NCBI GenBank assembly: GCA_914767715.1
Contig: OU612066.1
Coordinates: 17,179,001 to 17,243,000 of the forward strand
DNA: 64,000 nt
Source: Membranipora membranacea
Lineage: Eukaryota > Bryozoa > Gymnolaemata > Cheilostomatida > Membraniporidae
Reading direction: 5' to 3'
Of the stretch, positions 404 through 63,918 are shown one piece after another. Under the pieces are notes generated by a model. That model did not search any database. It was given only the letters and a program-made list of their open reading frames with translations, and was not told where the DNA came from. Every line of letters begins with the position of its first letter. Within the stretch, counting starts at the first letter, position 1. The position numbers and the translations under genes were made by a program.

Positions 404-1890
404 TCAAAATGTAATCTCAGAGTCTGAGGGTTTCTCAAACTCTGCTGATATTGTTTGTAAAACACCCGATAGAGTATGAGATAACGAACGCCAAGCAGAT
501 GTGAACGCTGATGATTCATCTGAGGAGTTAGATAGCGACCTTGGTTCGACTGCACATGAGTATTCAGCATACTCTGCATAGCGGTCAAGTGGAGCAGGTC
601 GATTGTTACAGTATTGTGATTCTTCCATGCGAGGGCTATTATTAGATAACTCACTGCTATGTGGTGTCGTACTCTCAGCGCTGGGAATAGGAGACAAGGC
701 AGATGTCCTAGGTGGTACATATAGAGGCTGTGGCACAGAAGCTTGGACGTGGATTTGCCTATTCACATTTTCCAGTACCTCTTCATAGTATGGCCCATCG
801 GGAACATAGGCATCGTTTGATCTCATGTGTTCCTGAGGTGATCTATGCTGTATTGGCAGAGGAGGTGAAGGTGGTTGGGACAGATTGTCACTGTGAGACG
901 GTCTCACATCCAGTTCTTGGTCACTTTCTCTTTTATGAGATAATGATCGCCTAGCAGAAGTGAATGCTGATGGTTCATCTGAGGAGTTAGATAGAGACCT
1001 TGGTTCCACTGCGTACACATAATCAATGTACAGTCCATCATGGTCATGTGGGCCCTGATCATTGTCACAGTATGGTGATTCTTCAGTGGAAGGGCTATTA
1101 TCAGATAACTCACTTCTATGTCGTGCAGTATTCACAGCGTTGGGGATAGGAGGCAAGTCAGATACCCTAGGTGGTACATATGGGGGACGTTGCACAGATG
1201 CATGGACGCGGATTGGTCTCCGCACTTTTTCCAAGACTTCCTCATAGTATGGCCCATCGGGAACATCGCTATTGTTCGATCTCATGTGTTCTAGGGGTGA
1301 TCTTAACTGTATTGGCATCGGAGGTGAAGGTACTTGGGACAGATTGTCATGGTGTTCTTGGTCACTTTCTCCATTATGAGATAACGATTGCCTAGCAGTA
1401 GTGAACGCTGATGGTTCATCTGAGGAGTTAGATAGAGACCTTGGTTCCACTGCATATGAGTATTCAGCATACTCTGCATCACAGTCATGTGGGACCTGAT
1501 CATTGTCACAGTATGCTGGTTCTTCAATGGAAGGGCTATTATTAGATAACTCACTGCCATGTGGTGCAGTATTCACAGAGTTTGAGATATGAGGCAAGTC
1601 AGATACCCTAGGTGGAACATATGGTGGACGCGGCACAGATGCATGAACGCGGATTGGCCTCTCCACATTTCCAAGTACCACCTCATAATATGGCTCATTG
1701 GGAACATTGGCATTGTTTGTTCTTGTGTGTTCTAGAGCAGGTCTTTGCTGTATCAGTCGAGAAGGTGAAGGTGCTTGAGGCACATTTACATTGTGAGAGG
1801 GTCTCACATCCAGTTCTCGACTTCGTTGTCTATTATGCTGAGGTGTTGATCGCTGTTGATCTCTCCATTCAAGTGAGCTCATTGCAAAAT
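404..1890 (-). repeat. R1 tail exon: three direct protein repeats
   Basis: A single exon of 1,487 nt encodes about 495 residues as three imperfect repeats of about 150 residues. Each repeat contains, in order, a Pro-rich segment with PSPP, a PYYEEVLE or PYYEVVLG block, PPYVPPR, SELSNNSP, YCDN or YCNN, a YAVEPRSLSNSSDE block and a SLSH end. YEEV resembles the Src-family SH2 preference, YVPP fits YxxP, and the Pro-rich parts could bind SH3 domains. These binding roles are inference. The reading frame is open throughout, unlike most R tails in the window. Confidence 0.85.
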
Positions 1891-4800
1891 CTATAAGGGT
1901 AAAAGAGGAGAAGGATTGATATTAATTGTCGGCAACTTGTTTGTATGATTTTTATTTACTGTAAAACAATACTGCCAATACCGAAGATTTTATTTCAACC
2001 CTATAATGGCTACATGATTTATCTGAAACTTTTATTTTATAGGCCACAAACTTTTACCTTCAATGATACGATCTGAGACAGATCGAATTCTCTGTCTTCT
2101 GTGTGGAGGAAACTTCTGGATCAGTTGTCTTCTCTTTTTTGTGTACAGCACCCAAAGCACAGCTGAGAATATTCCAAGTATTAGCACCACTGCGGCCACA
2201 GAGCTTCCAACCATAGTAGGGACTTCTGCAAGATGAAATAAAGTGTTACAAATTTGTCAATATACACATGCATTGCTAGCATGTGTTTGAGGTTTAAAAA
2301 ACCAAAGACTATTGTTGGTTGAGTCAGGGAGTGAGTTTATACAGCTTTACCTTACAGCTGACACATCACAAAACGGGAGTGACGCTCCCTTTGTACATGG
2401 AAAGACAACTACTGCTTTAAAAATTTAACATTTCCTGATCAGGGTGTTTAGTCTACATATGTCGAAATCTGTGACACCATATATATCAGAAATAAAGGCA
2501 AGGATGTTAAGACTTTATTACTCACCATCAATCCCTTCATCTGATGTCGTTGTGCTGGTCACAGAATCGTTTGGAACTGAAGTCTCAGTAGTATCAGTAA
2601 TATTATTGGCATCATTATCGTTAGATGTCACTGCAATAGAAATATGAAAATAACATTTTGATTTTATTATTAGTGTCGTAAATTTGTATATTCAATTACT
2701 CAGCAAGTTTTTATACAGAGATTATCAATAAATGGTTGATATGCACACAGATGAATGAGTGATTTAGAAGTGTTCAACTTCACGTAGGAGGGAAATGGAT
2801 CAAGATATCCAAGACAATGTCACTGTTTCTGGTGAGAAAAATGTCATTGCAACCAGTAGCCGATAACTGATCTCAATACCCCTTTGTCTCTAACATCAAT
2901 TCCCCCCTCCCCACTCATCAAAACAGACTGAGCAAGTAATGTAGCACAAATTAAAATTTTTACTTAGCAGTAGATTAAGCGAAAGAAATTAGACTGTGGT
3001 TACGCTTATAGGATAAAGGATTATTGGCAATCAATTGCTAAAAATTCTTTGTACTAACCAAACATACAGAAGTTGACACTAAACAGTCAGTCAACTCACC
3101 GTTATATTTAAGCTTGATCAATCTGAGTTTGGGGTCAAGAGCGAGTAAGTATCCCTGGTTTTTAATGTCCACCATATTTTTTACTTTCATATCCGCACTT
3201 CTGCAGTTGGGCTTGCAAGGCAATTGTGTCGTCTCATTTAAAACACCGCTATGGTGACCTGTATTAATATCGACTAACATCAGCTCATCATTTAATGTGC
3301 GACAAAGAAGTACACCTTTCTCTATGCTGATTGCTTGTTTAACAGGGTTTGAAAATATGTGGAGCTGCACGGGGTTTGACTTCTGTGTGTGCAGGTTGAA
3401 ACTATTCATGGTAATTACGGAATCTTCTTCGGAGAAAATGTAGGCTGTAGAATAGTTGATATTAAATGCCATGGCTGTTGCAATTCCGCCGACACCATTG
3501 AAGTCATAAGTTGTTGGCAAGACATTTGAAGATAGATCGACGCTATAGATTGAAGAACTGATTATGAAAAACACAACTTGTGAATTTGGGCTGTAATCTA
3601 CCGCGATTGGTCCAAGACTTGCTGATCCACTCTGCATACAGATAACTGTTGAGTTCAGGCAACACTTGGGTTCTGTGCACACCAATGTAAACTCTTGTGT
3701 GATGCTGATCATATTGTTAGAAAGTTGATATACTTTCACCGAGTTTTCCTCTCTAACAAGGAACTTTCGACTGCTTATCTGATGAGAGCATCAGTCTTTA
3801 TTAATAGGGAAGATGATTCTCTTCCCTGTGAAATGTTCCAGAGGTAGATATTGTTGTCCTTGGAATATAAAACTGTTTGATTGCTATCTAAATTTGGTTC
3901 CATGCTTTCTGGAATATTCACAGCCAGATTTATTGTAGGGTCATCAAAGTTCTGTTCTATCATTTCCAAGGTTATTCTGAGAAACAGAAACAAAATATAC
4001 AAGATGTACTTGGGCAGGAAACAAAGGATTCGTAAATAAAACTCACTACACAACAGATCTCAGCAACAAGAGTAGAAGGAGGCCCAGTTGGTAAGAGCGG
4101 TTGTCCTTAAGCATGCAAATATTGCAGACTCCCCACTAAGGCACTAAAATTTTGACACCCATGCTTTAGGATGTATCGTGTGACAAGACATCTTAATTTT
4201 TTTCAATCAGCATTACACAAATGCGTTCAGAGAGTACGAAACTTATATATTGTTATCCAGTGGATAACAGTTATCTACTCGTCAAGCAAGAGAGGACAAT
4301 GTTGTTATCAAAAATAATGATAATAATATTTGAGTAATTAAAACAAATGTGGACAAATTATTCCCAAGCTTGTGCAAAAGACTATCAAAGTTTATCCTCA
4401 TGAAACCAAAATGAATGGGAAAGTGTATTTTTGTTGTCAGCAAGACAAATGTCATAGCCTAGAAATAATTGAATATTTTGAAATAACTGTCATGGGGAAT
4501 CAATAATGATAACTGAAATTCAAGATTCTCGCATTCTAGAGAATTCATGAGCGAAACTCAATAGGTTACTATATAGCTATACAACACTTTACCTGGAACC
4601 TGTTGAGTCACCTTTGATATCTGCGGCGTTTAGATATACCTCTACACAAAGCCAGATCATCAACTGTAAATTTGAGAAGTATGATATGATTTCATTCTTT
4701 ATCTATTCAAAGGTTAACTTTTCATCACGTGTAATGACTATGTGCACTAAAATAATCTGTCCTTTCGGTTTCATTATACAATGGATTTGGAAAAACTGTT

Positions 4801-5025
4801 CACACATGTAGGGCCAAGTTATGAACAATTTGGATATGATTTGCTCTTATATTGGATTTAAATGCAGAGGAATAGTCAACCAGTTTGAATAGAAATAACC
4901 ATCTACGGCTTACGGTAAATAGAACAGGTTTCTCCTTCTGATCTGTTGGCATGCAAATTTCAGAGCAAGATTATAAATCAATTGGTATATAAGGTTTCAC
5001 ATGCTCCTACCTTGTAAATATCCAT
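404..5025 (-). CDS. R1: propeller-ectodomain transmembrane receptor with three-repeat tyrosine tail (one frameshift)
   Basis: Six exons follow canonical splice signals: 5011-5025 (start MDIYK), 4593-4663 (hydrophobic signal peptide), 3100-3976 (ectodomain), 2526-2630 (stalk), 2058-2225 (membrane segment AAVVLILGIFSAVLWVLY, then a KKRRQ-type basic stop-transfer) and 404-1890 (tail). All junctions keep phase. The ectodomain has strand patterns such as NIYLWNIS, PIAVDY and DELMLVDINTG, resembling YWTD-type propeller blades, plus a CCLNSTVIC cluster. The tail holds three repeats of about 150 residues with PYYEEVLE, PPYVPPR and YCDN, and ends in SEITF. It has no kinase domain. Compared with R6, 10 bp are missing near 3782, putting a stop inside the ectodomain exon; an assembly error is possible. 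Type I topology is inferred. The ligand is unknown. Confidence 0.72.
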
Positions 5026-5338
5026 TTCCTCAGTACTTGATTATAGGAATCTACCAAAATCTCAGACAACAGCTATGACAAGAGAAAGCAATAGACGAAA
5101 CACAGCAATAGGTGAGAGACACAACCATCAGCTTTTGTTCATCAGCCAATTGTAACTTTAGTGATGGATATAGTCTTATATTACAGGACTAGACTTAATC
5201 TCCTTAGTCCAACCCACTTTATTTCAATTTTTTGCCTAACACTGTGAGGCGATCAACCACAATTTGTCCTTACTATGAAAAGTTGCATAAAAAATGTTGT
5301 AGGAATCGGTCACTAATCATATAATAATATATAAATAC

Positions 5339-5344
5339 TTTATT
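5339..5344 (-). terminator. possible poly(A) signal of S1
   Basis: AATAAA on the minus strand lies between the S1 stop and the R1 start. It is about 640 nt after the S1 stop, much further than in the other S copies, so the assignment is tentative. A signal here supports S and R being separate transcripts. Confidence 0.35.
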
Positions 5345-5986: not shown

Positions 5987-8869
5987 TCATCCACGAAATG
6001 TCCAATAAGATTGCGATGGACAGGACTTGATGTCAGTGAGCCTCACTTTCAATTCTCTTCTACTTTTAACAGCGCAAACTATACTTTCCTTTGCGCCTCC
6101 TGCAAATAGGAAAATTGGAACATGAGATATCTTAATTGCTTATGGCAATGTTGCTTTTAATATCATGGTATGTGCCATAACCCAATCATATTCAGGAAAG
6201 GTACGGGTCAGGTATTGATATCATGTGCACCCATTGGGAAGCTGCTGGGCTTCGTCAACAAATAAAAAATCAGACAGAAAAGGCTTTTGGTGAAACTAAC
6301 TCCATTGCATGAAATTCAAAAACTTCTCGGCCCATTGGCTAAGATCAAAGTGCCAGTGGCCGATTAGTGCTAGTTTCAGTTTCTGGCAGCTTGCTGCACA
6401 CCCACGTTCAGGAGGCCTTCTATGGCCTCACCTCTAGGATGCATTCTAGTTTTCTAGGATGTATCACATTCTCAGTATGAGGATATAGGGCACTTCTGTT
6501 TCTTACTAAGCAGCAAGAAATTAAAAAACAGGTGTCCTTTCTAATGATATATGATGAGTCTAAAGTGACCTTAGGAGTCATAATTTGTATTATTTCTATG
6601 ACTGGATGATGTAAAAGTATGTTAGGTTTTGGTGGTGTCTTGAGCATGCTTTGAGGGATTGATACATTCATCAGGCAACCCTTTACGGGTACTGGCACAG
6701 GCCTCTGAGTTCTCATATATTATGTCTTATATTACAAATCTAGATATTGTTTGTTGTTTTTTTAAAATAAAATCTGCAAATACCAACCGTACTTACTTTT
6801 ATGTTTAATAAGTTTGAAAAATCCAATACCAGCGTATTCAAACACATTCTTGTCACACATGGACACCGTCTCGGCCGCCTGCTGTGAGCTGGGCTGGAAC
6901 AAACATGAGGTTGAAATTTTGAATAAACACAACATTAGTCTATAGAAATGTTGCTGCCATATTTGACAACCAAATTAACAATAAAATATGAGATACAGGA
7001 CAAGGTCGATATATGATATGGATCAGTGCAAACAAAGATGAAAGATTATTGTGTTTATGTACCATTGAGAGTGTTCAAATGAATTGAGCATGGATGTTTA
7101 GTTAGGCCTCAGGGAAATGCTAGTACATTTACTTAAGATTCAATCCTATAGCATAGTGACATTTACCGTTGCTATGAGTCTCACTCCAGATGGATCTGCT
7201 GTAATTTGACCTTGAGAGTAATGAGTCCTTCGATAAACTTCTTGCCTCACATTCCAAACATGTATAATGACAAATAGCCGGTTGTCACTAGCCCAATCTA
7301 TTTCGTAAAAATCGTTTGTCACGTACTGGCGTTCTGTTGCTATAACAAGCAGAGGGAAAACACTTTAAATAGGGTTGATTGCGGATGCCATCAGTGCTTT
7401 GATATGTGATGATAATCTTAGCAAAACCTCCGGAAATGGTCCACCACGGGCGAGTATTGCACCTGATGGTTCAGTTGCCTGTGGATAAGCTGTTGCAGCC
7501 AGTTTATATAGTTGCAATCTGACCAGTGTAGACTAGCCTTGGTGGCAGCAAAAAATTGTAAAATTTTACATCTTGATGAATTATTAAAGTGTTTAGCAGA
7601 GCAAAGAACAACCACTGTTCATATCATAGCAATGAACAGAAATGTGAAAATTACACCGCAAGAACACCATTGAATGATGTAACTGATTTCAAAGTGGAAG
7701 AAGGGTCTAGACTCTAAAGTATGGTATCTTCCCTGCGACACGAAATCACTATATGAAGTGATAATCATCCACCAGAATAGCAGTAAGCCTAGCCCTAGCT
7801 CGCCTAGAGCTGTAACAAAGTTGCAAAACTTACACCAAAAATTATCTCATAACAGTATTTGTCGATGTTAGCCTAGTCAAAGATATTACAGCATTTATCT
7901 GTGTCAAGGGGGACAACATACTCTAGAGTCTAGGCCCTGTTTTTTCCTCTTTAAAATCAGCTATATCAATCAATAATTTTCTTTTGCAAGCAACTTTAGT
8001 TTTTTTTGTTTATTGCTATGAAATTACTTTGATATAAAAAGTGGCTGTTTTTGCTCTCCTAAACACATTAATAAAAAGCTCTTATTCTGGGACCTCATTA
8101 TTCACCTTCTGTTTGCCACCGCTGCATGATGATTTCCTTGGATATTGGATCAATTGTCATAAACATAGATGACCCATCGTCTCGTACATTAAGCTTGGAT
8201 GTGCTCCTCGCATGCATCAATTTCAGAGTTGAGCAGTATTCAGCATAGTATTGGCTTACTAAAACTTAAAACATGATACAACAATGAGAATATTGTGATA
8301 TTATTATGGTTAAATTTAGGCCCAGTCTTAGTTTTTGGATATCTGAGTATTCCTGACAGTCCAGTGACGGGCTTCTAAGAACAAATCTATCATGAAATGC
8401 TTTCTCTGCGATACTAATCACCAATTTCAGCCAAATTTTCTTCATCAAATTATGGATTGTCAATAAATTTAAACATTCCAAGCAATCAAAGCAACTTGAT
8501 GGTGCTTCAAACTTTTTCTAGTTTCCGCCTTGAACATGTCAAACCCTAATAAAGCCTGGAATGTCCTTAAATTATGAATTATAAAATTTGAGTTTTAACA
8601 TAGTTTGATTTTTTTTGCTTTATTGCTCACCTGTTAAAATGATGAGATGATCTTGCTGGAACAACATGGTAGATGGTGTGATGTTTATATCGTGTCTTAA
8701 TCATGAGTGTTACTGAATTAAAACCTTTATTCAAAAACCCATGGTTAAGAATTTCAGTATAAAGGGTAATAAAACAATTGTTCTCAGCGACTTGCCTTTG
8801 TTATTTAGAGTTTCCATTTTGAGTATCCTTTGTCTGATTGTAATGAAAATTGGAACCAACACAGAGGTT
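5987..8869 (-). CDS. S1: S-family protein, 3' five exons open, 5' splice donor lost
   Basis: Exons 8641-8712, 8106-8258 (SQYYAEYCSTL), 7167-7339 (FYEIDWAS, FVIIHVWNV, YSQGQ), 6797-6893 (PSSQQAAETVSMCDKN) and 5987-6099 (SIVCAVKS, ending QSYWTFRG) keep canonical splice sites and compatible phases. The exon reaching 8869 (CWFQFSL) has lost its donor: TATGTAACA in S5 and S7 reads TAAATAACA here. The 8641-8712 exon also has stops at its 5' end in the family frame, though a Met in MLFQQD could start a shorter protein. A further exon is at 9564-9632. No database family was recognised. R1 begins about 960 bp downstream. S1 is either a shortened gene or a decaying one. Confidence 0.55.
7711..7929. mobile_element. 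small inverted-repeat element in an S1 intron
   Basis: The insert is absent from the matching S6 intron around 42485. Its ends are inverted repeats (CTAGACTCTAAAGTATG against CTAGACTCTAGAGTATG), and the similarity runs roughly 30 bp inward with mismatches. S6 carries the short word CTAGAGTCTAG at the same place, which could be an excision scar. The superfamily cannot be assigned. Confidence 0.5.
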
Positions 8870-11854: not shown

Positions 11855-14510
11855 TCAACCTATTGCATAGTTCGGGCTCTTATCGCTGACCCCCGCCATG
11901 GAGGTTGTTGAATTTCTGACAGAGGCTTGATTCACCAGTGTCGATTTGAATGCTGTAGGTTTGCTTAGTCCGGTATTATGATTGGATATGGCACCAATAG
12001 GAGAGAGAAGATCTATTGATATGGATTGCTTTCTGTTGTTTTTGTGAGCTAACATGGAAGGGGAGAGTAAATAATCGGTGAGCAGTGATTCATAAGTGTC
12101 GTCCATCGATTCTACAAGAAGACAAAATCAGCAAGTCATTATTTGGTGGGATATTCTGTGCTTGTTAGGTTCCACTACTATCAAATCAAAAAACTATATT
12201 ATGTGTATCATTTGACACAGTTTCGATTTCAAAGGCTATTTGGGAGTATCTGCCCAATGGTAAGAATGACAAGTATATAAAATTACTTGGACGGTATATA
12301 ACATGTAGAAGATAGGCAACCCGGTTTAATTATTTGTTATGCTGTGAAACTTGAGGGCCAGGACTGTTTTCCAGCAACTAAGTAGGTTGAATGGCCTGAA
12401 TATTGCACACAAAAAAACACTCTTTAAACAAGGATGGCCAAGAATGAAATAACAGAAAATGATCCGGGGGGGGGGGGGGATGACATAAAGTTTCAAAACA
12501 ACTAGGTAGGCGCATGGGTTTTGGTAGTGTAAATTTTCCACTCTCCTGTACATTAAATGTTGGTTTAACTTGCAGAGAATATACTTCGGGAAAACAGGAA
12601 AATCCAGGATTCAATACAACACATATATTATTTCCATTGTAAGTGACTTAAGTTTGTACTTACATCTAGTTCGCTATCTAAACAGCTGTCATCTCCAAAA
12701 CCAGCCCCATCACCATCCTGCACTGAGAGTAGGGAGTTATCTATACATGCTTGTCTACATGGACGTGGTGTACCGGCATCGTCACGCTTGGCTGACTCAG
12801 CAATTCCGATTACGTCATCATCTGTGTCACAGCTGTATACGATAAAGAGAGCAGATAATTAAAAAGGATACTTATACTAACTATCTTGCTGTACATGAAG
12901 TTGTGGGTCTTATCAAAGTGATAAGAAAACTGAAAACTGATTAGATATCGTTAAATTGTTCATGAACTAATAATATTACCAGAGATGAGTAGGGGCTGAA
13001 ATGGAATACAAAAAAACAACATATAAGATTGATCATTCTCCCACTGCTTCTTCACTTTGACAAGTCCAGTCGTTGATTCCCTATACAGTCTAACCTCCCT
13101 ATGTCGTACGCATGATGGTAACAAACTTGACAAGACCAAATTTGGATCAGTTACCCATTTTCAAGAATTCGATCAGAGCTTTATGTCCAATGTACTCCTA
13201 ATTCAATTAAACTACTGATTGGCTGGTTTCAGATCAGCCAAACTGTCAAAAAAGTACAACATACCTGCCAGTCTTTCTGGATGGAGATTTGATGAGATAT
13301 GGTTGACTTCTCAATCTCATATTGACTCCGGCTTGTACCCATTCATCAGCAGATTTCTCTCCTCCCAATGCAAAGAGCAGCGCATCTCGTCCTATAACAG
13401 CGTTACAGCGACGTCGCTCACTTTATCGAACACCTCGCTGGAGTAACGTAGTCTGACAGAGTCAAGCTTTACATCTCTGTGATCTTTTGGGGCTTCTTCC
13501 ACAAAACTATTTCCTTAGAGACATGATATTATTTGAAACTGTTATGATGACCGGAAATGCTATGAAAACTGAATGAAATGATTTTTTCCTACTCACCCAG
13601 CTTAGCAAAGTTCTACTATTGGTTCAAAATCAACTAAGAGTATGTAAATTTGAATTTGCGGCAATGATTTATATTTCAGATACAGATCCCAATCAACATC
13701 ACATTACAGTGCTGAAATCTATAGTAAAGATAAAAGCTGAATTGAGTAACTGACCATTTCTCATGAATATGTAGTAACATGAATCCAGTGAACTGAACAC
13801 ATCTCTCTCCCCACAGATCATCTGTAAAACAAACAAACCAAATAATAAAAAGGAGTTGCAATTATGTCTGGTAGCTATTTATATTTACTTTAATTAGATA
13901 AAATCACTCACTGCTGTTAACAGGGGACATGTCATTGATTATTAAAGGATGAATAGAGAAATTTGTGTAACCACCATTGGGTAAGGTGGGGTAACTTGGG
14001 ACGATTTTTCATTTATTTGATTAAAGGTCATGACAGAAACAATGCAGCTTTTGAATCTTTGGTACACAAAATCCATTTCATTGACAGTAAATCAAGAAAT
14101 TGTGAAATATACATCAGGTGAAGACATCTAATCTAGATACTCATTTTACACCAAATAGGGTGGGAACACAAGGTTAACACACTGGCAATATCCAGATCAT
14201 GTTCAATTCAATTTGCGTTCATTTGGAGTTGCTTCTCCTCGGCCAGTATAACCATAGCAACTTGAAATTCAGGCAAATCTGATCAAACTAACAGAGTAAA
14301 TGCTCTCATGATATGTCACACATCTGTACCTTCCTTGAGCATGACTTTAGATAGTATAATACAAGAAGCTGCTAAGTATGATTTTTTGTACACAGTCAGA
14401 TCTACGTGTTGGAGACACAGTTCACATATGTACTCTGATAAATGTCTCTCCTTATCTGAGCAGTCGGCTAGCTTACTGAGAACTCGGATATAGTCTAATA
14501 CTGTAGGTAC
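11855..14510 (-). pseudogene. CCNF: cyclin F (CCNF) 3' part, truncated and frameshifted
   Basis: Exon 14330-14510 encodes a cyclin C-terminal fold (VPTVLDYIRVL, YICELCLQHVDL, KSYLAASCIILSKV). Exon 13755-13821 (FTGFMLLHIHEK) joins in phase to 13422-13506 (FVEEAPKDHRDVKLDSVRLRY), matching the conserved KKCF-APKDY region of animal cyclin F, the substrate receptor of an SCF ubiquitin ligase. Exon 13265 to about 13402 (DALLFALGG, SPSRKTG) is in a different frame from the preceding exon. It joins 12664-12832 (acidic, DTDDDVIG). The last exon is about 11855-12110. F-box and cyclin N-terminal exons are absent because the sequence switches to an inverted R tail just upstream. The recognition of cyclin F is strong. 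Pseudogene status rests on the truncation and the frame break. Confidence 0.8.
12469..12480. repeat. G homopolymer
   Basis: A run of about eleven to twelve G in otherwise AT-rich sequence. Similar G or C runs occur at about 16057, 34727 and 59126. Confidence 0.7.
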
Positions 14511-14547
14511 CTGAAAATAGAGAAATATAATCATACAGGTAATCGTA

Positions 14548-15528
14548 CAATCTGTTCCAAGTACCTTCGCCCCCTCTGCCAATTCAGTATAGATCACCCC
14601 TAAAACACATGAGATCGAACAATGGCAATGTTCCTGATGGGCCATACTATGAGGAAGTCTTGGAAAAGGTGGAGAGGCCAATCCGGGTCCAAGCATCTGT
14701 GCCGCGTCCCCTATATGTACCACCTAGAGTATCTGACTTGCCTCCTATCCCCAGCGCTGTGAATACTGCACAACATAGAAGTGAATTATCTAATAATAGC
14801 CCTTCCTTTGAAGAATCACCATACTGTGACAATGATCAGGTCCCACATGACCATTATGGACTGTATGTTGATTATGAGTACGCAGTGGAACCAAGGTCTC
14901 TATCTAACTCCTCAGATGAACCATCAGCATTCACTTCTGCCAGGCGATTGTTATCTCATAATAGAGAAAGTGACCGAGAAATGGATGCTAGACCCTCTCA
15001 CAGTGACAATCTGTCCCAAGCACCTCCTCTACCAACACAGCATAGACCACCTCTAGAACACACGAGATCAAATGATGCCTATGTTCTCAATGGGCCATAC
15101 TATGAGGAGCTACTGGAAAGTGTAGAGAGCCAAATCTGCGTACAAGCATCTGAGCCACGGCCCCTATTTGTACCACCTAGGACCTAGGACCTAGGACCTA
15201 GGACCTAGGACCTAGGACCTAGGACCTAGGACATCTGCCTACGAATCCCAGGGCTGTGAGCACTGCACCACATAGCAGTGAGTTATCTAATAATAGCCCT
15301 CGCACGGAAGAATCACCGTACTGTGACAATTGCCCTTCTCCACTTGTCAGTGATGCAGAGTATGCTGATCTCATATGCAGTGGAACCACGGTCTCTATCT
15401 AACTTCTCAGATGAATCATCAGCATTCACTTCTGCTTGGCGTTCGTTATCTCATACTCTATCGGGTGTTTTACAAACAATATCAGCAGAGTTTGAGAAGC
15501 CCCCAGACTCTGAGATTACATTTTGATT
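14548..15528 (+). pseudogene. inverted R cytoplasmic-tail fragment
   Basis: The plus strand here encodes the last two tail repeats of the R family: GPYYEEVLEKVERPIRV, YVPPRVSDLPPIP, a second PYYEELLE block, and finally FEKPPDSEITF with a stop. It is opposite to all other R genes and has no stalk, membrane or ectodomain exons upstream. A heptamer expansion at 15174-15231 shifts the frame and further deletions follow, so it cannot be translated through. Homology to R tails begins abruptly within 40 bp of the last cyclin F exon boundary, marking a rearrangement junction. Confidence 0.85.
15174..15231. repeat. heptamer array (CCTAGGA)n
   Basis: About eight perfect copies of a 7-bp unit lie in the tail fragment. 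The unit is the family sequence at the PPRT codons (ccacctagga), so the array arose by local slippage. The number of added bases is not a multiple of three. Confidence 0.95.
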
Positions 15529-16666: not shown

Positions 16667-18287
16667 TGTAATCTACAGCTATTGGTCCTAGCTTTCTCGA
16701 TCCACTCTCTCTGCATCCAACACTCGAGTTCGGGCAACAGCCAGGTTGTGTGCACACCAACGTATCCGCATGTGTAAAGCCGCCCATTTTGAAAGGAAGT
16801 TGATACACTTTCACCGAACTTTCGCCACTTACAAGGAACTTGTGGCTGCTGATTTGGTGAAAACCGTTGATAACATCATCATTCTCAATTAATTTGGAAG
16901 AGGACTCCCTTCCCTGTGTAATGTTTCAAAGGTAGATTTTGTTTCCCAAGGAATATAAAATTGTTTGATTGCTATCTGAAGTTGGTTCCATGCTTTCGGG
17001 AACATACTGTTCTGGATATTTAGAAGGATCGTTGAACTTCTGTTCTACCATTTCCAGGGTTATTCTGAGAAGTAGAAAAATAGAATACAAAATATACTCG
17101 GGCTGGAGGCAAGGCACTCAATGAATTTATAATACTACAAATTTCAGCAATATATCTGCAGATAATTTTGCTGGTCTGGTGACTATAAATATTAATCTTA
17201 ATACCACCTTCAATCAAATGAATTCAGAATTTCGAGACACATGTTCCTTCGTCAGTCAAATATAAACTGTGATATAAACATGTGATAAAAGACTACAATA
17301 CTTTCCACATCAGGAGATCATTGTTGACCAGTAAAAATGTTCCTTCAACCAGGCAGTTAATCCCATACGCCTTGCTTTTACATTAAATGGGACAATTTTA
17401 CATTATTTTACATTTTTTTTACATTATATTTTACAAAATTTAGCTGACCAAATATGGCAAAACGAGATTTTTAAACCAATTCATTTCATTTAGCAAAGCG
17501 TTATATATATCAATTAATCACATACAGTAAAACTTGTTCTCCAACCTGATTATCATTTCCGTCCATATCTATAAATATATTTTCCTTTATTTTCTTTGTT
17601 TGTTTTGATTATGAGGTCAAAAAGTTATTTTCCTTTGTTTATAACATACTTATATATATGAAAACCTCAATAAAAACACATAATAATAATGAAAAAATAA
17701 TCAATGAGTAGTTGGCCGTAAGTAAGAGAGGACAATGTTGTTATCATAAATAATGATGCTTGTGTTGTCAATCAAAATGAGGAGGAATAAATCCCAAAGT
17801 GTGAGTAGAATCTTATCAAAGGTTATCATCTTGGAAATAAATTCTGTTGGAAAGTATTTTTACCTTTTTTCCTGTTGAGTTATCGATATATATCTTGGAA
17901 ATATTATATGGTTAAAAATGGCGGTAAATGACAGCTTTAAAAATGTACTCACATTTTGTAAAGGAAACGGAAACTGCAGATTTCCACCTTCTTAATAATG
18001 GAAAAAACCATGTGAAAACCTTGATATGTTACAATAAATTTTTACAATACTTTACCTTGAACCTTTGGAGTCACCTTTTGCAGCTGTAGCAATAAGAATA
18101 ACTTTCACAAAACACCAGATAATCTGTAATTGAAACAGTTGAGACACATAATAGAAATCGTTATCTTTATTCAAAGATCCACTTGCTATCGGTCAGGGGG
18201 AAACATTTTGTTGACAAAATATAATACATCTAATTAATTTATCTAGCCAGTTTCCTATGCTCTTACCTTATAGATATGATCCGCCAT
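16667..18287 (-). pseudogene. R2: truncated R gene
   Basis: The start exon 18267-18287, signal-peptide exon 18056-18123 and ectodomain exon ending at 17064 have intact splice sites. A nonsense codon at 16926-16928 replaces the Trp of the IYLWNIT motif. Homology stops abruptly after PIAVDY near 16667, so the second half of the ectodomain, stalk, membrane segment and tail are missing. It is most similar to R7. A three-copy 34-bp minisatellite lies upstream of the start. Confidence 0.8.
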
Positions 18288-43806: not shown

Positions 43807-43870
43807 GGTCATGTGGAACCAGATCATTGTCACAGTATGGTGATTCTTCAATGGAAGGGCTATTATAAGA

Positions 43871-46800: not shown

Positions 46801-48034
46801 CCAGGGTTATTCTGAGAAGTAGAAAAAAAGAATACAAAATATACTCGGGCTGGAGGCAAGGCACTCAAAGAATTTATAATACTACAAATTTCAGCAATAT
46901 ATCTGCAGATAATTTTGCTGGTCTGGTGACTATAAATATTAATCTTAATACCACCTTCAATCAAATGAATTCAGAATTTCGAGACACATGTTCCTTCGTC
47001 AGTCAAATATAAACTGTGATATAAACATGTGATAAAAGACTACAATACTTCCCACATCAGGAGATCATTGTTGACCAGTAAAAATGTTCCTTAAACTAGG
47101 CAGTTAATCCCATACGCCTTGCTTTTACATTATATGGGACAATTTTACATTATTTAACATGTTTTACATTATATTTTACAAAATTTAGCTGACCAAATAT
47201 GGCAAAACGGGATTTTTAAACCAATTCATTTCATTTAGCAAAGCGTTAAATATATCAATCAATCACATACAGTAAAACTTGTTTTCCAACCTGATTATCA
47301 TTTCCGTCCATATCTATAAATATTTTTTCCTTTTTTTCTTTGTTTGTATTGATTATGAGGTCAAAAGGTTGTTATTTTCCTTTGTTAATAACATACTTAT
47401 ATATATGAAAACCTCAATAAAAACACATAATAATAATGAAAAAATAATCAATGAGCAGTTGGCCGTATGTAAGAGAGGACAATGTTGTTATCATAAATAA
47501 TGATATTTGTGTAGTCAATCAAGATGAGGAGGAATAAATCCCAAAGTGTGAGTAGAATCTTATCAAAGGTTATCGTCTTGGAAATAAATTCTGTTGGAAA
47601 GTATTTTTACCTTTTTTCCTGTTGAGTTATCGATATATATCTTCGGAATATGATATCGTTAAAAATGGCGGTAAATGACAGCTTTAAAAATGTACTCACA
47701 TTTTGTAAAGGAAACGGAAACTGCAGATTTCCACCTTCTTAATAATGGAAAAAACCATGTGAAAACCTTGATATGTTACAATAAACTTTTACAATACTTT
47801 ACCTTGAACCTTTGGAGTCACCTTTGGCAGCTGTAGCAATAAGAATAACTTTCACAAAACACCAGATAATCTGTAATTGATACAGTTGAGACATATAATA
47901 GAAATAGTTATCTTTATTCAAAGATCCACTTGCTATCGGTCAGGGGGAAACATTTTGTTGACAAAATATAATACATCAAATTAATTTATCTAGCCAGTTT
48001 CGTATGCTCTTACCTTATAAATATGATCCGCCAT
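43871..48034 (-). pseudogene. R7: R gene disrupted by transposon, deletion and nonsense codon
   Basis: The exons are 48014-48034, 47803-47870, 45660-46811 (ectodomain, interrupted), 45081-45185 (stalk), 44599-44766 (membrane) and about 43871-44214 (tail). A 287-bp insertion with 8-bp duplication sits in the ectodomain exon. About 38 bp are missing after CTQPG near 46487, shifting the frame. TAA at 46742-46744 replaces the Glu of the VPESMEP motif. The tail starts normally (NSLERRDQQRATPEHN, PYYEVVLGNVERPIRV, PPYVQPR) but stops after one repeat and runs into S6-related sequence. Splice sites, stalk and membrane exon are intact. Confidence 0.85.
45835..46121. mobile_element. hAT-like MITE in the R7 ectodomain exon
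   Basis: The 287-bp insert is flanked by a perfect 8-bp duplication ATGTCGAC (45827-45834 and 46122-46129). Its ends are short inverted repeats (CACTGAATT against CATTGAATT). R8 reads continuously through this site at about 61458. The 8-bp duplication fits hAT. Confidence 0.85.
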
Positions 48035-48446: not shown

Positions 48447-51400
48447 TCATCTGCTAAATGTCCAATAGGATTGCGGTGGGCAGGATTTCAAACCAGTTAA
48501 TCTCACTTTTATTGATGTTCTACTTTTAACAGCGCACACTATACTCTTCTCTCCGCCTCCTGCAAATAGGAAAGTTCAAAACATCAGACCAAAGTAAGAT
48601 ATAGTCTGGCAGCTAGATGTGCAGTAGATCCAATATTTTTACACTGAAAAAATTCATAGCCCTTCTGGGTAAGCTCCCACTTTTATCTACTTATGAGAAC
48701 AGTAAAAACTGAATTTCTCAACAAAGGTTAATGATTGAATCATTGAATGTATCAACCATTGTACAATGTCTCCTGTCAATGAAAATACATATCCATTCTT
48801 ACGCAGAAAAAACTCAGTAATGAAAAGTAAATGAAAGTGGAAGCATATTCTGCCAATGTGTTGGTTCTTATTGGTGGGAAGAAGAAGAGCCAATGTCAAG
48901 GTCATGTGTGGCCTGTCTTGACTAGCTTGTCAAGACAGGCTAGGACATATGGTACTTTCAAATGTAACAAGCAACAGAGCTAGAGTTCAATTCTGAGATT
49001 GTTGTACACGAAGCTTGTAAATAATTCAAAATTATATGTAAGGTTTTGCTAGTGCCTTGTGAGCATGTTTTGAGGGATTAATGTCTCATACTGTATAGCT
49101 CTAGATATTGTGTGTAGCTGTTTTAAAATTAAATCCAAGTCAGCATAAAACTAACTGTACTTACTGCTGTGTTTAAAAAGTTTGAAATATCCTCTACCGA
49201 CAGATTCAAACACATTTTTGTCGCACATGGACACCGTCTTAGCTGCCTGCTGTGAGCTGGGCTGGAACAGAAATATTTTAACACTTTAGAATAACTGTAT
49301 AACATGAGCCAAGTCCTTAATTTGCTTGCTCAGGTAGACAGGTTTTTGTTGCACAATGCATGCCTTAGAATGCCAGTTTGCTGCAGATTAACTCATATAT
49401 CATAGTGGCACTACCGTTGCTATGAGTCTCACTCCAGAGGGATCTACTGTCAGTTGACCTTGAGAGTACCGAATCCATGGATAAAAATTCGTTTTCACAT
49501 TCCACACATGTATAATGACAAATATCCGTCCGTCACGAGCTCGATCTATTTCATAATAATCACTCTTCACATACTGGAGATCTGTTGCTATAACGAGCAG
49601 TAGGAAAACACTGTAAATAGAGTGGATTGCCTGAAGCCATCGTTTCATTAGTATGCGAGTTACAATCTGAATAGCAACATCTCATTAAGCCTAGAGTAAG
49701 TTCACACAGTCCCGAAAGTTTAGCTCAGCCCCACTGGGTTGGCGAGTGAGAATGGTACTGGCCATGTTTACTGAAATAGATTACCTGGCCCAATCACATC
49801 TAGTAAAAACATTCATATCTGCTTCCTGTGAAATAAATTTCTATTTTAATTTGCAAAACGTAATTTTCTTAATATGGATCTGGATGAAATCTTGCAGATT
49901 CATCACATGCTTTCATGCAGATAAATGTGGAGGGGTCAGCTTTGGTTGGTTCATCGGGATCTGACATGATTTTATATTTATGGTATGAATATAAATGCAA
50001 TATGTAGCGAATGTTGGCCAATAAGCCGATTAGTGCGATCACAGGAAGTTTCTAACGCTAACTTATGGAGTCGGATTAGGCCCAGTGTGGTCTAGCCTTA
50101 GGTAGAGGTAGAGGAAAGGTAGCAAAAAACGGTAATAGTTGAAAAGACACTAAAACCTATCATTCAATTTATTTCAACAGAAGGGGTGCAACATATTGAC
50201 AACATTATATGTATAGATTGGTCGCCCAAATACTATGTCATAGTTTGCCAGTTAGGGAGGAATCAATTTTTAACTCTAAAACTTGCAGGAGATAAATCTT
50301 AATAATTACCCATGGTATCCCATTATTTCCCATTAGAATAGCAAAATATTCCCATATATTCCTTTTCTCAGCTCAGTTTAAAGGGAGTTGTAGCAAGATT
50401 GTAAATTTTATTGCAGGTTGAAATGTTATGAGGCGGGTCACATGACTCAAAATCAATTGAAGTTAGCAAATATTTATGCAGAGAGGTGTGAGGCCATCTT
50501 AGAAAGGTTTTCAAAGGCTGCAGCACTTTTTAACTGGCAGACTGAGAGGTGTAGAAGCCAAGTATTTGAAATCAGCATAAAATTCTGAACTAGTGGTATT
50601 GTTGCCTCCTTTCGTTAAAACAAACACAGTTTTGAGCACTTAGAGCAAGGTGTAAATTAAATGATAAGCTATGCGTTTTAAATCTCATCACAGACCTTCT
50701 GTTTTCCATCGCTGCATGACTATTTCTTGTGACATTTGATCGATTATCATTAACTCAGAGGATTCCTCATCGACTACATTACTTCTGCCATATGAGCTCT
50801 TCTCATCATATAATCTCAGCGTCGAGCAGTGTTCAGCATAGTACTGACTTACTAAAACTTAAAACATGATATAATAATGAGAATTATATTGATATTCTTG
50901 AAAAATGAATGATGACAATTCTTAGTTTTACTAGTTAAATTTGTGTTAATCTGCAAGTCTGATAACTGACCATCAAGGATCAGTATATTCAAATAATAAT
51001 TATACTAACCTCAAATTTCTGGCCTCAGTCTGAAATGCATTTAATGTGAAACATGCCAGCTGATCACCTACGATAACCTGATTTTCTCATCAATTTACAA
51101 TTGAGTTCAAGCGATCTGGAATTTGATTGATGTTTCGATAATTTCTCGTTTCAACGCAAACATAATGAATCTTTGTATTATCTTAAAAGCCCCTATATTA
51201 TATTTGTTATATCTAGTATTTGGTAAGTTTAAAAACTAGTTTTAGCGTCATGCTTTCAACTCAAAGTCTGCATTCAAGGATGATGTATTGTATTGAACAT
51301 AGAGGCCCTCTCAAGGGTTGTAATAAAGACTCAAGTTAGATCACACTTGATCTTTTTGCCTTAATCTATTTAAGACTATTCTGCTCACCTGTTAAAATGA

Positions 51401-51644
51401 TGAGATGATTGTGCTTGGAAAACATGGTAGAAGATGCGATCTTCATTTCGCTTCTTACACTAGAATAATACTGAATAAGGACCTTTAGCTAAAACCCTAT
51501 GGTTTATAATTTCAGTATAAAGGGTAATAAAACAGATATATTTCCCCTCGTTTGGAATTGTTCTCAGCTCCTTTGTTACATAGAGTTTCCATTTTGAGTA
51601 TCCTTTGTCTGGTCCTAATGAAAATTGGAACCAGCACAGAGGTT
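48447..51644 (-). CDS. S7: S-family protein, six in-phase exons, outer 5' exon damaged
   Basis: Exons 51580-51644 (PLCWFQFSLGPDKGYSKW), 51389-51470 (MFSKHNHLIILT), 50696-50851 (SQYYAEHCSTLRLYDEK), 49415-49587 (YYEIDRARDGRIFVIIHVWN), 49165-49261 (PSSQQAAKTVSMCDKN) and 48447-48559 (SIVCAVKSR, PPQSYWTFSR) join in phase with canonical splice sites. The exon near 52152-52220 (ICKAGNQCMSFDG) has lost its donor in a deletion of over 100 bp. AATAAA follows the stop by about 50 nt. It is most similar to S4 and shares its intron hairpin but lacks the hAT insertion. Function unknown. Confidence 0.65.
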
Positions 51645-52336
51645 CTTGCAACAAAGCATGTGTATAATTTTCAAATTGTGAGTCTGTGACTTAATTGGGG
51701 CTGCATAGAAAGATGCAATCAGGCCCTATCCAAATGAGTTCCAGCGGTAGGGCCAAGGGATGCTTTGGCAATTGGTTGTGATGGATAATTTATGTCATAT
51801 CTTTGTAAATTGTCAAACTATAGATGTATTGGAAAGGGGTTGCACTAGAAGCGTACATCTTTTAAACAACTCTATATGTATAAAATGGTTCATAATCAGT
51901 TCATCAACTTTTTTGCGCAAATAACCTAATGGGCCACGATCATATATGCAAAGCCAAATCAATAAAACAGGTTAGTGTAAAGAACAAAATGGTTATTGTA
52001 TTGAACTAAAGTCTAACGACCAATGTAAAGGAAAAAATCTGGAATCATTATTCATGACAGGCCTTTGTTAAGGGATTGTGGCAAGAGCTAATCCCAAATT
52101 AAAGTCTTAAACTCCAAAGCAACACATTCTACTGTCATTGACGTAAGAAAGTTGAGATTATGTAAACTACACCATCAAATGACATGCATTGATTTCCTGC
52201 TTTGCAGATGGGGTTGGTTTCTGTGGTAAATTTTTTTGCAACGTTCAACTTTGTTCGGCAGAGAACTATAATCATTCCAGTCTGACATCTGTTATCAAGT
52301 GTCTCCTATGCAATTAGTTACGTACCAATGTAAAGG

Positions 52337-54913: not shown

Positions 54914-55421
54914 AATGCCTCCTAAAAAGTCAGGTTAACAAAACAAACGAAGAGCTACTTCATCAAATGAAAGCAGTGTAGTGAGGATCCCCAAGAAGAG
55001 GAAGAAACAGCATGAGACTGATGAGGAGAATGATGACGATGAAGTTGTTGTTAGGGTTAGTGATTCTTCTGATGTTAGTAGTAGTGGCTCCAGACTCCAG
55101 ACCAAGTTTTTCTGAATCCCAGAAAAACACCGTTCAAAGAGGCAGTGCAACATCATCTGGAAACATGCTTGATGAGCTGAATAAGTCAGCACCAGGGACA
55201 TTTTGTAAAGCACCTGGTAATGATAAATCCAAAGTGAAATGCACTGTATGCCAGGCTGTGTTAGTGATCTCATCTGGGATGAGGGATATTGAGAGACACA
55301 TATCAACTAACAAGCACAAAGATTCAGTAAAGGCAGCTGCTGGACAGCGGAGTTTGTTCTCATTTGGTGTGAAGGCATCATCCATGACAGCGGAGGAGCG
55401 AGACCACCAAAGTCAGTTATA
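54914..55421 (+). pseudogene. decayed transposase-type zinc-finger fragment
   Basis: A frame starting MPPKKSG has an in-frame stop and then an acidic/basic stretch (RIPKKRKKQHETDEE). A different frame carries KVKCTVCQAVLVISSG and ERHISTNKHKDSV, a C-x2-C...H-x4-H-type finger seen at the N-terminus of some transposon-derived proteins, followed by QRSLFSF. The two parts are out of frame with each other. I infer a dead transposon gene; the exact family is not certain. Confidence 0.5.
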
Positions 55422-55429
55422 GTTATAGT

Positions 55430-59472: not shown

Positions 59473-62400
59473 TCAAATTGTAATCTCAGAGTCTGAGGGC
59501 TTCTCAAACTCTGCTGATATTTTTTGTAATACACCCGATAGAGTATGAGATAACGATTGCCAAGCAGATGTGAATGCTGATGATTCATCTGAAGAGTTAG
59601 ATAGCGACCTTGGTTCAACTGCATTGCGGTCAAGCGGAGCAGGGCGATTGTCACAGTATGTTGATTCTTCCATGCAAGGTCTATTATTAGATAACTCACT
59701 GCTATGTGGTGTAGTACTCACAGCGCTGGGAATAGGATAGGACTTCTTTCTATGCTCAGGTGTTGCACGCTGTTGATCTCTTCGTTCAAGTGAATTCATC
59801 GAAAAATCTGTAAGAGTAGAAGAGGAGAAGGATTGATATGTATTGTCGGCAATTTGTTTGTATGATGTTTATTTACAACAAAACAATATTGTCAATACCG
59901 AAGACCTGATTTGAACCCTATAATGGCTATATGGTTTGACTTTGTTAAAGACTCAGGTAGTACCACAGCAATATATAATCTGGCAGCTCGTTCAGCAGTA
60001 ATTATGCAATATCTTCACATTTAGAAAATTCAGAGCACTATTGGGTAAAATTTATGTATAGTGTTAGAAATTGTCCTCACTTCTCATCTATGACTATGAG
60101 CTATGAGGTATCCGTGGGGCCTAGTGCTGTGCCGGAGTCTTCAAACAATAGATGTAGTTTATCTGAAACTTTTATTATAAAGGCCACAAACATTTACCTT
60201 CGATGACACGATCTGAGACAGATCGAATTCTCTGTCTTCTGTGTGGAGGAAATTTCTGGATCAGTCGTCTTCTCTTTTTAGTGTACAGCACCCAAAGCAC
60301 AGCTGAGAATATTCCAAGAATTAGCACCACGGCAGCCACAGAGCATCCAACCATAGTAGGGACTTCTGCAAAATGAAATAAAGTGTTACAAATTTGCCAA
60401 TACACACATGCATTGCTAGCATGTGTTTGAGGTTCAAAAAACCAAAGACTTTTGTGGGTTGAATCAGGGAGTGAGTTTGGGACAGCATTACCTTACAGCT
60501 GACAACATGCTTGTACATCAGAAAACGGGAGTAACGCTCCCTTTGTACAGGGAAAGACAACTACTGCTTTGAAATTTAACCTTTCCTGATCAGGGTGTTT
60601 AGTCTATAATTATGCCAAAATCTGTGACACAATATATCTCAGAAATAAAGGCAAGGATGTTTAGACTTTATTACTCACCATCAATCCCTTCATCTGATGT
60701 CGTTGTGCTGGTCACTGGATCGTTTGGAACTGTAGTCTCAGTAATATCAGTAATATTATTAGCGTCATTATCGTTAGTTGTCACTGCAATAGAAATATGA
60801 AAGAAATATTTTTATTTCATTTGTCATTTCAAGTGTCGTAAATTTTTCAATTTTATTACTCAGCAAGTTTTCATACAGAGATTATCAATAAATGGTTGAT
60901 ATGCATACAAATGAATGAGTGATTTAGAAGTGTTCAACTTCACTCAAGGATTCTCTTGAATTCCTTGCTCCACTTAGGAGCGAAACGGATCAAGATATCC
61001 AAGGCAATGGCACTGTTTCTGGTGAGGAAAATGTCATTGCAACCAATAGCTGCTAACTGAGCTCAATACTCCTTTGTCTCTAACATTAATTCCCGCCTCC
61101 CAACTCATCAAAACAGACTGAGCAGGTAATGTAGCATGAATTTAAAATTTTACTTAGCTTAGATTTAGCGAAAGAAATTGGACTGTGGTTACGCTTATAG
61201 AACCAAGGATTATTAGCAATCAATTGCTAAAATCCTTTGTAATAACCAAAACATACAGAATTTGATACTAAACAGTCAGTCAACTCACCGTTATATTTAA
61301 GCTTGATCAATCTTTGTTTTAGGTCTACAGCGAGTAAGTATCCCTGATCTTTAATGTCCACCATAGTTTTTACTTTCATATCCGCACTACTGCAGTTGGG
61401 CTGGCAAGGCACATGTGTCATCTCTTTTAAAACACCGCTATGGTGACCTGTATTAATGTCGACTAACAGCAGCTCATCATCTGCTGTGCGACAGAGAAGT
61501 ACACCTTTCTCTATGCTGATAGCTTGTTTGACAGGTTTTGAAACTCTATGGAGTTGCACAGGGTTTGACTTCTGTGTGTGCAGGTTGAACCTATTCATGG
61601 TAATTACGGTACCTTCTATCGAGAATATGTAGGCTGTAGAATAGTCGCTATTAAATGCCATGGCTGTTGCACTTCGCCGACTTCATTAAAGTCAAAGGTA
61701 GTTGGCAAGGCATTTGCAGATAAATTTACCCCGTATATTAAAGAGCTGTCTATGTAAAACACAACTTGTGATGTGGAGCTGCTGTAATCTACAGCTATTG
61801 GTGCTAGGTTTATCGATCCACTCTCCCTGCATCCAACACTCGACTTCGGGCAACAGCCAGGTTGTGTGCACAGCAACGTATCCTCATGTGTAACGCCGCC
61901 CATTTTGAAAGGGAGTTGATACACTTTCACCGAACTTCTCTCACTTACAAGGAACTTGTGGCTGCTGATTTGGTGAAAACTGATGATATCATCATTTACA
62001 GTTAATTTGGAAGAGGACTCCCTTCCCTGTGTAATGTTCCAAAGGTAGATTTTGTTTCCCAAGGAATATAAAATTGTTTGATTGCTATCTGAAGTTGGTT
62101 CCATGCTTTCGGGAACATACTGTTCTGGATATTTAGAAGGATCGTTGAACTTCTGTTCTACCATTTCCAGGGTTATTCTGAGAAGTAGAAAACTAGAATA
62201 CAAAATATACTCGGGCTGGAGGCAATGCACTCAAAGAATTTATAATACTACAAATTTCAGCAATGTATTTGCAGATAATTTTGCTGCTCTGGTGATTATA
62301 AATATTAATCTTAACAACACCTTCAATCAAATGAATTCAGAATTTCGAGACACATGTTCCTTCGTCAGTCAAATATAAACTGTGATATAAATATGTGATA

Positions 62401-63398
62401 AAAGACTACAATACTTCCCACATCAGGAGATCTTTTTTGACCAGTAAAAATGTTCCTTAAACCAGGCAGTTAATCCCATACGCCTTGCTTTTACATTATA
62501 TAGGACAATTTTACATTATTTTACATTGTTTTACATTATATTTTACAAAATTTAGCTGACCAAATATGGCGAAATGAGATTTTTATACCATTTCATTTCA
62601 TTTAGCAAGGCGTTATAAATATCAATCAATCACATACAGTAAAACTTGTTCTCCAACCTGATTATCATTTCCGTCCATATCTATAAATATATTTTCCTTT
62701 TTTTTTTCTTTGTTTTGATTATGAGGTCAAAAAGTTGTTATTTTCCTTTTTTTATAACATACTTATATATATGAAAACCTCAATAAAAACACATAACAAT
62801 AATGAAAAAATAATCAATGAGTAGTTGACCGTAAGTAAGAGAAGACAATGGTGTTATCATAAATAATGATACTTGTGTAGTCAATCAAGATGAAGAGGAA
62901 TAAATCCCAAAGTGTGAGTAGACTCTTATCAAAGGTTATCCTCTTGGAAATAAATTCTGTTGGAAAATGTTTTTACCTTTTTTCCTGTTGAGTTATCGAT
63001 ATATATCTTCGAAATATTATATCGTTAAAAATGGCGGTAAATGACAGCTTTAAAAATGTACTCACATTTTGTAAAGGAAACGGAAACTACAGATTTCCAC
63101 CTTCTTAATAATGGAAGAACCATGTGAAAACTTTGATATGTTACAATAAATTTTTAAAATACTTTACCTTGAACCTTTGGAGTCACCTTTGGCAGCTGTA
63201 GCAATAAGAATAACTTCCACAGAACACCAGATAATCTGTAAGTGAAACAGTTGAGACATATAATAGAAATCGTTATCTTTATTCAAAGATCACTTGCTAT
63301 CGGTCAGGGGGAAACGTTTTGTTGACAAAATATAATACATCAAATTAATTTATCTAGCCAGTTTCGTATGCTCTTACCTTATAAATATGATCCGCCAT
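59473..63398 (-). CDS. R8: complete transmembrane R gene with short tail and one frameshift
   Basis: The exons are 63378-63398 (MADHIYK), 63168-63235 (VEVILIATAA), 61289-62177 (ectodomain), 60679-60783 (stalk), 60198-60365 (membrane, AAVVLILGIFSAVLWVLY) and 59473-59807 (tail), with canonical splice sites and matching phases. The ectodomain shows IYLWNITQ, CTQPGCCPKSSVGC, PIAVDY and ELLLVDINTG. A single missing base near 61675 (CTTCGCC where others read CTTCCGCC) breaks the frame. Otherwise this is the best transmembrane copy. The tail is only about 110 residues: the PYYEEVLE blocks are deleted, leaving STYCDN, AVEPRSLSNSSDE and the end SEITI. Whether the indel is real decides if this is a gene or a pseudogene. 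Confidence 0.75.
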
Positions 63399-63469
63399 TT
63401 CCTTGGTAAGGTTATAGGAATCTACCAAAATCTCAGACAAAAGCTATGACGAAAGACAGCAATTGATGA

Positions 63470-63537
63470 AAGACAGCGATATACTGAAGACAGCGATAGA
63501 TGAAAGACAGCCATATACTAAAGACAGCGATAGATGA
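63470..63537. repeat. 34-bp minisatellite, two copies (R8)
   Basis: Two units at the family position upstream of the R8 start. Confidence 0.9.
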
Positions 63538-63805
63538 AAGACACAACCATCAGCTTTTGTTCATCAGCCGATTGTAATTATTGTGATAGATAGGGTCTTA
63601 TATTACAGGGCTAGAGTTAATCTCTTTTGTTCCACCCATTTCATTTCAATTTTTTGCCTAAACACTGTCAGGCAAAAAACACAATTAGTCCCTACCTATT
63701 AGTACCTACCTACTACTATAACTATACTATAAAGTTGCTGTAAAGACTTTATTTTCAGATTAAGTTACCAATTGTATGATCACGTGTATGAAAAAGTCTG
63801 TTCTC

Positions 63806-63918
63806 TCATCTGCTAAATGTCCAATAGGATTGCGGTGGGCAGGATTTCAAACCAGTTAATCTCACTTTTAATGATGTTCTACTTTTAACAGCGCACACTA
63901 TACTCTTCTCTCCGCCTC
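63806..63918 (-). CDS. S8 last exon (gene continues beyond window)
   Basis: This is the 113-nt terminal S exon, open, ending with the family SYWTFSR stop and with the CTGCAAAT acceptor complement at its right. AATAAA follows downstream. The other exons would lie beyond the right edge, so completeness is unknown. Confidence 0.65.

Follow-up and report, generated by a model that had tools for sequence, protein, structure and literature searches.

What keeps two unrelated gene families side by side, in the same order and on the same strand, through many rounds of duplication? This question is raised by a 64,000-nucleotide stretch of the bryozoan Membranipora membranacea (assembly GCA_914767715.1, contig OU612066.1, here C2:17179001-17243000), referred to below as 'the window'. 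It lies in a tandem array whose unit consists of two genes on the same strand (the minus strand in the window): S, encoding a product of about 190 residues, then R, encoding a receptor-like protein. The array measures approximately 210 kilobases (kb), from about 17.142 to 17.356 megabases (Mb), so that it extends beyond both edges of the window, which represents about 30% of it. We examined C2:17139001-17373000 around the array together with a related locus at 10.40-10.43 Mb, and scanned the whole assembly (339,339,785 bases in 18 contigs, with intron-bearing genes). Our leading reading, a tentative one with slightly less than an even chance, is that of an old two-gene cassette in which the S product is a putative ligand for the adjoining R.

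Linkage and co-divergence of S and R

A protein search of the genome with the R propeller yielded 119 matching stretches, located on contigs C1, C2, C4 and C11, and the corresponding search with S yielded at least 158 matches (150 of 282 candidates scored). Outside the array, 78 R stretches were kept, second pieces of already represented propellers being left out, and the 80 S stretches among the matches listed were grouped into 46 S loci. At 37 of these 46 listed loci, an R on the same strand was present within 10 kb downstream, at a median distance of 2,543 bases; an R on the opposite strand was found within 10 kb at only one. Starting from R, 34 of the 78 stretches had an S within 12 kb upstream among the matches listed. 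The other 44 had none among the S matches listed; the upstream DNA was read at two of them, 18.366 and 16.371 Mb, and S exons were present there in the right order upstream of R in both cases (best S E-values of the open frames with hmmsearch, 1.6e-11 and 1.3e-12). The pairing includes deep loci, where R shares merely 32-36% with the array copy. The physical linkage expected of a ligand-receptor pair was found in the array and at the 37 listed loci outside it, and among the paralogous loci of this genome the two families did not turn out to be unlinked, a result that would have spoken against the pairing.

Distances between S copies could then be set against distances between R copies. For 16 array modules, nucleotide distances of the two genes were correlated (Mantel r = 0.834, permutation P = 1e-4, 10,000 permutations). 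Protein distances were compared at nine loci, spread over three contigs and including three from the array; with S taken from its third exon onward, r was 0.938, and none of 40,320 sampled permutations was as high. Divergence between array modules reaches about 22% for S and 25% for R; the sister pairs M160-M76, M155-M34 and M43-M9 are nearest neighbours in both genes, and partner swapping was not clearly seen among the nine loci. Because the distances agree both in the array and across the nine loci, co-duplication of S and R followed by long co-divergence is strongly supported by these comparisons. The joint duplication put forward in the original prediction thus holds, with no overall discordance of S and R in this genome, and the co-divergence expected of a ligand and its receptor is present among paralogs of a single genome.

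The ratio of nonsynonymous to synonymous substitution rates (dN/dS) was calculated for seven representative copies (21 pairs). Its median was 0.33 for S and 0.40 for the signal peptide and propeller of R, the latter value being inflated by decay, since several of the compared copies have a broken R. With such values there is no sign of gene-wide diversifying selection among the paralogs of this one assembly, and on these ratios both genes are judged to be under purifying selection on average. For the stalk and transmembrane part of R (six copies), dN/dS was 0.46 and dS 0.18, as against 0.47; this lower dS suggests gene conversion of the 3' part of R.

Structure of the two genes and their products

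The S gene has five coding exons, of 37, 156, 173, 97 and 113 nucleotides in the reference copy (approximately 190 codons). Splice borders were counted on copies matched across the whole exon in the array and at the 10.4-Mb locus. The three middle exons have AG and GT borders in 18 of 18 cases each, the first exon has a GT donor in 19 of 19, and the last exon an AG acceptor in 20 of 20. A polyadenylation (poly(A)) signal, AATAAA or ATTAAA, is found within 150 nucleotides of the stop in 19 of 20 last exons, compared to 25% of random array stretches, and the position of the stop is held within a few codons across the array and the paralogs read. These conserved borders, the S stop with its poly(A) signal and the start that R has of its own strongly support the earlier proposal that S and R are separate genes.

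Whether a block is coding was judged by module alignment and a codon test. Exon blocks S3 and S1 are each stop-free (15 long copies for S3, 15 copies for S1), and exon block S2 has one stop cell among 17 copies; insertions and deletions are multiples of three, save in one of 15 S3 copies and four of 17 S2 copies. An upstream block, 'S4', was rejected as an S exon and considered non-coding because it has no codon pattern and carries indels of 5, 7 and 13 bases. Eighteen S genes could be chained. The frame is open and complete in 12 of them, and open in three others where the stop is displaced or cut off; an in-frame stop interrupts one copy and a frameshift another, and the remaining one had no match to the first exon. 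At six paralogous loci on C1, C2, C4 and C11, blocks S2, S1 and the last exon were recovered in all six and block S3 in four, with exon borders that look alike by eye.

A start exon resembling a short signal peptide was found in four of the seven paralogous S stretches searched; these four all keep the hydrophobic N-terminus, which is more pronounced in two. Cysteines 135, 163 and 181 are invariant in 11 S sequences; C21, covered by nine of these, is invariant as well. From the N-terminal hydrophobic stretch and the four conserved cysteines, the S product is probably secreted, and a probable signal peptide would fit a ligand.

S had no significant match in Pfam, the PDB or protein databases. 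Outside this genome, the S profile retained no protein at E up to 0.1 among 3577 candidates, and a composite S, whose query included a non-coding segment, retained no protein at E up to 0.01 among 134. Several candidate families were discarded: DUF7717 (best E 0.054, under the family cut-off), NHL (one member only, E 0.023, not significant) and a pair of PDB chains unrelated to one another (E 0.61 and 1.0, not significant). A gasdermin match at E 0.0055 depended on the non-coding block; E was 0.13 to 0.16 once the block was removed, and correct S profiles found no gasdermin at E up to 10. A cytokine-like beta-trefoil of the IL-1, IL-18 or FGF type, a resemblance by eye only, was also rejected, the supposed motif being lost in the paralogs and the profiles empty.

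R encodes a signal peptide, a beta-propeller, a stalk, a membrane helix and a tail rich in tyrosine. Its predicted form is that of a type I receptor: the stalk is short and rich in Thr and Ser, a single helix crosses the membrane, and the tail, rich in both proline and tyrosine, has YYEEV and PPYVPPR in its repeats. The signal-peptide receptor of the original prediction is supported by sequence and predicted structure alike. The propeller model, built on 15 diverse R copies, has a predicted local distance difference test (pLDDT) score of 85.5; an attempt on six sequences was poor (52.2). The circular array of four-stranded blades that characterizes a beta-propeller fold was found in the predicted model and in its structure matches, and the strand list of the model, as we read it, would correspond to six blades. 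The composite R and the first A3 member scored under the curated cut-offs of the Pfam propeller families (WD40, NHL, YWTD), the best E-values of the other 14 A3 members were 0.0026 to 0.32, and fold resemblance does not tell these three families apart for R. The kinase scan covered two pieces of R and gave no match at E up to 10 in either: a composite R of 500 residues, which runs past the membrane helix into the tail, and the 505-residue R1 tail exon. A receptor tyrosine kinase was therefore rejected for R, as no cytoplasmic kinase domain was present in the pieces scanned.

Many R copies have decayed. In the array and at the 10.4-Mb locus, four of 10 full-span propeller exons are open, all four outside the window, at 17.35 (M177), 17.33 (M155), 17.27 (M95) and 17.15 Mb (P37). 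The module at 17.3466-17.3551 Mb is intact. The tail was sought in 12 modules and reaches the normal C-terminus in six (M177, M155, M95, M67, M9 and P37), in M67 only in shortened form. In some modules translation of R can begin at an ATG of the signal-peptide exon itself; the recent clade has lost this ATG to a change, and there a mini-exon further upstream (MADHIYK) can provide the start codon.

Modules of the window

The order S then R on the minus strand, as first proposed, was recovered at 8.7-0.4, 28.0-21.7, 33.4-28.6, 43.5-36.7 and 51.4-43.8 kb of the window. The same proposal described these modules as better preserved. It needs one correction: all eight R copies of the window have a broken or truncated propeller, while S is open in four of its five complete copies.

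All genes described here are on the minus strand. S1 (5987-8667; exons 8631-8667, 8106-8258, 7167-7339, 6797-6893 and 5987-6099) is intact and is followed by R1 (404-5025), in which the propeller is frameshifted and an open tail of 495 residues retains three YYE repeats. S4 (23988-27984) is also intact, with five exons, and R4 (21709-23553) is truncated after about 206 propeller residues. The five exons of S5 (30374-33392) form an open frame, next to an R5 (28635-30082) of which only the signal-peptide exons and a portion of the propeller, also damaged, are left. S6 (40730-43493), again with five exons, is the exception among the complete copies, having a single in-frame stop in the third coding exon; the propeller of R6 (36721-39833) is mostly gone, and its stalk (37938-38042) and transmembrane segment (37472-37640) remain. 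S7 (48447-51425; exons 51389-51425, 50696-50851, 49415-49587, 49165-49261 and 48447-48559) is intact, and R7 (43805-48034) is a pseudogene, as is R6, with stops and deletions in the propeller, a stalk at 45081-45185, a transmembrane segment at 44599-44766 and a shortened tail. At the right edge, the predicted S8-R8 pair is present: the last exon of S8 (63806-63918), the remaining exons of which lie past the window, precedes R8 (59473-63398), which has a frameshifted propeller and a tail down to 111 residues.

Between these modules, the lone S last exons of the original prediction were found: one at 21356-21468 separates R3 from R4, and one at 18723-18835 separates R2 from R3. R2 (16668-18287) and R3 (19076-20920) are truncated, and R3 is nearly identical to R4, as a tandem copy of a partial module. 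In the window, a tandem repeat at an offset of about 2.6 kb is 97.9% alike across 5,051 aligned bases. An R-tail fragment with YYEE and YVPP repeats, ending in EITF, lies inverted at 14543-15526, on the plus strand, opposite to the array.

Directly upstream of the S7 start, a non-coding block at 51481-51690 (minus strand) belongs to a set of blocks that certain modules share with unusually high conservation; it is suspected to be a promoter or 5' untranslated region. A non-coding block upstream of S in the module at 17.355 Mb (window-relative 176400-176160) is 97-100% identical between M177 and M155, more than their S exons (approximately 70-90%), which suggests a conserved promoter or gene conversion.

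Other sequences were encountered along the array. A Pfam Cyclin_C match lies at window positions 14316-14723 on the minus strand (E 3.6e-12), and a Cyclin_N match at the right flank of the array (L024:8681-9001, minus strand, E 1.5e-13). An open frame on the plus strand is repeated at 54985-55422 of the window, L014:4507-5028 and L018:5924-6283; its window copy has a weak zinc-finger match (E 0.008), and the repeated frame probably belongs to a mobile element lying between modules. A long open frame that by eye resembles a reverse transcriptase (L028:6675-9998, minus strand) adjoins the S-R locus at 10.40 Mb. Neither an Rfam family at gathering score nor a transfer RNA was found in the window.

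What the pairing may mean

Linkage and co-divergence suggest a matched signal and sensor. We place the ligand-receptor cassette first because these two properties are combined with the receptor architecture of R and the probable secretion of S. The S product would be the ligand of the R encoded beside it, or its modulator; its binding would lead to tyrosine phosphorylation of the R tail and to the recruitment of SH2 and SH3 proteins. With both genes in one cassette, cognate versions would stay together on copying, and a repertoire of matched pairs would therefore accumulate, which would suit self/non-self or partner recognition. A damaged R beside an intact S would be a non-signalling remnant, or its S product would serve receptors elsewhere.

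Several observations weigh against this reading. The main difficulty is that R is broken in many modules where S survives, something not expected if the two formed an obligate one-to-one pair; S may also serve receptors elsewhere, or the array may be in turnover. For nine of the 46 listed S loci, none of the listed R stretches falls within 10 kb downstream; at six of these nine an R follows at 12-21 kb, and the last three lack one nearby. The nearest relatives of S and R disagree for several modules (the recent clade, P25, P37 and the 10.4-Mb locus), which indicates that some sequence was exchanged or converted, or that the branching is unresolved. S has only a short hydrophobic stretch, with a best eight-residue mean between 1.8 and 3.1 across seven S sequences. 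Finally, a unit always copied whole would look paired even without function.

The strongest rival is hitch-hiking, in which a duplicating segment happens to carry two unrelated genes with different jobs, their linkage resulting from whole-segment copying and rare breakage. Modules are indeed copied as near-identical blocks, and as R is lost or broken in many modules where S is intact, the two genes do not seem to depend on one another module by module. However, the pairing holds at dispersed loci on four contigs and persists down to the 32-36% level of R sharing, without clear partner swapping at the nine loci; with that much divergence, breakage ought to have left many unpaired genes. We regard hitch-hiking as less likely than the cassette, while giving it more weight than any other alternative.

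It is improbable that S, instead of being a ligand, partners the R tail in the cytosol or at the membrane as an adaptor or effector. The shortness of its hydrophobic stretch and the absence of any recognised extracellular domain in Pfam and PDB profile searches are in line with such a role, but the retention of that N-terminus in paralogs and the four conserved cysteines are not. Somewhat more improbable still is a single transcription unit, dicistronic or alternatively spliced. The constant order and orientation of S and R, separated by a few hundred to a few thousand bases, could be taken in this sense; the conserved S stop, the nearly constant poly(A) signal after it, and the start and signal peptide of R argue otherwise. 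A selfish killer-and-antidote pair spreading through its own linkage would account for two unrelated, tightly linked genes in many copies, one of which has often decayed, but a long-tailed surface receptor would hardly serve as an antidote, there is no hint of toxic activity, and both genes are on average under purifying selection, so that we give this idea very little credence. Least credible of all is a collapsed or expanded assembly, for which the near-identical repeat of the window could be invoked but which the divergence of the modules, their different lesions and the recurrence of the pairing on four contigs contradict.

The ligand-receptor cassette can be compared with known systems. 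At the self-incompatibility locus of Brassica, a small cysteine-containing secreted protein, SCR, is encoded beside its receptor SRK, which combines a lectin-type ectodomain with a kinase. The likeness lies in a small cysteine-containing protein, in the case of S only predicted to be secreted, next to a receptor; in contrast to SRK, no kinase was matched in the R pieces scanned, and S has no significant match. TgrB1 and TgrC1 of Dictyostelium are polymorphic self-recognition partners encoded by neighbouring genes, but both are membrane proteins, whereas S is small and probably secreted. The allorecognition families of sessile animals, Alr in Hydractinia and fuhc in Botryllus, resemble R in being clustered, duplicated receptor genes; to our knowledge they use immunoglobulin or other domains and not this propeller, and are not two-gene cassettes. 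Beta-propellers also occur in receptor ectodomains (LRP, ROS1, plexin-like proteins, and the bacterial sensor PknD); the composite R and the first A3 member score under every curated cut-off, and R has one propeller, a short stalk and no further recognised domain.

The nearest system in kind would be s-Themis/v-Themis of Ciona, where a receptor-like membrane protein and an extracellular partner are co-inherited at one locus and act in self-sterility, the genes being nested and opposed and their products polycystin 1-like and fibrinogen-like (PMC7018956). Both systems combine, at a single locus, a receptor-like protein and a partner, a putative one in the case of S; they differ in that S lies upstream on the same strand, the sequences are other ones, and the loci number dozens. 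By analogy, the S-R cassette may be grouped, as a putative case, with linked recognition gene pairs. Such linkage was not found to be general in a survey of the human genome, where ligands lay no closer to their receptors than chance (PMC1309615). No description of such S-R cassettes was found in the literature searched, most subscription journals being outside the scope of the search.

The two linked pairs named above, of Ciona and of Brassica, govern self recognition in mating. The S-R family is a defined candidate for recognition in this lineage, and its dozens of loci provide many natural replicates for testing cognate co-evolution of linked genes. That these linked, co-diverging cassettes form a recognition repertoire separating self or partner from non-self, each with a secreted protein of a new family and a beta-propeller receptor with a phosphotyrosine-type tail, is an unlikely extension of the cassette reading. 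If it were true, one genome would hold a repertoire of matched signal-receptor pairs, an unreported recognition system.

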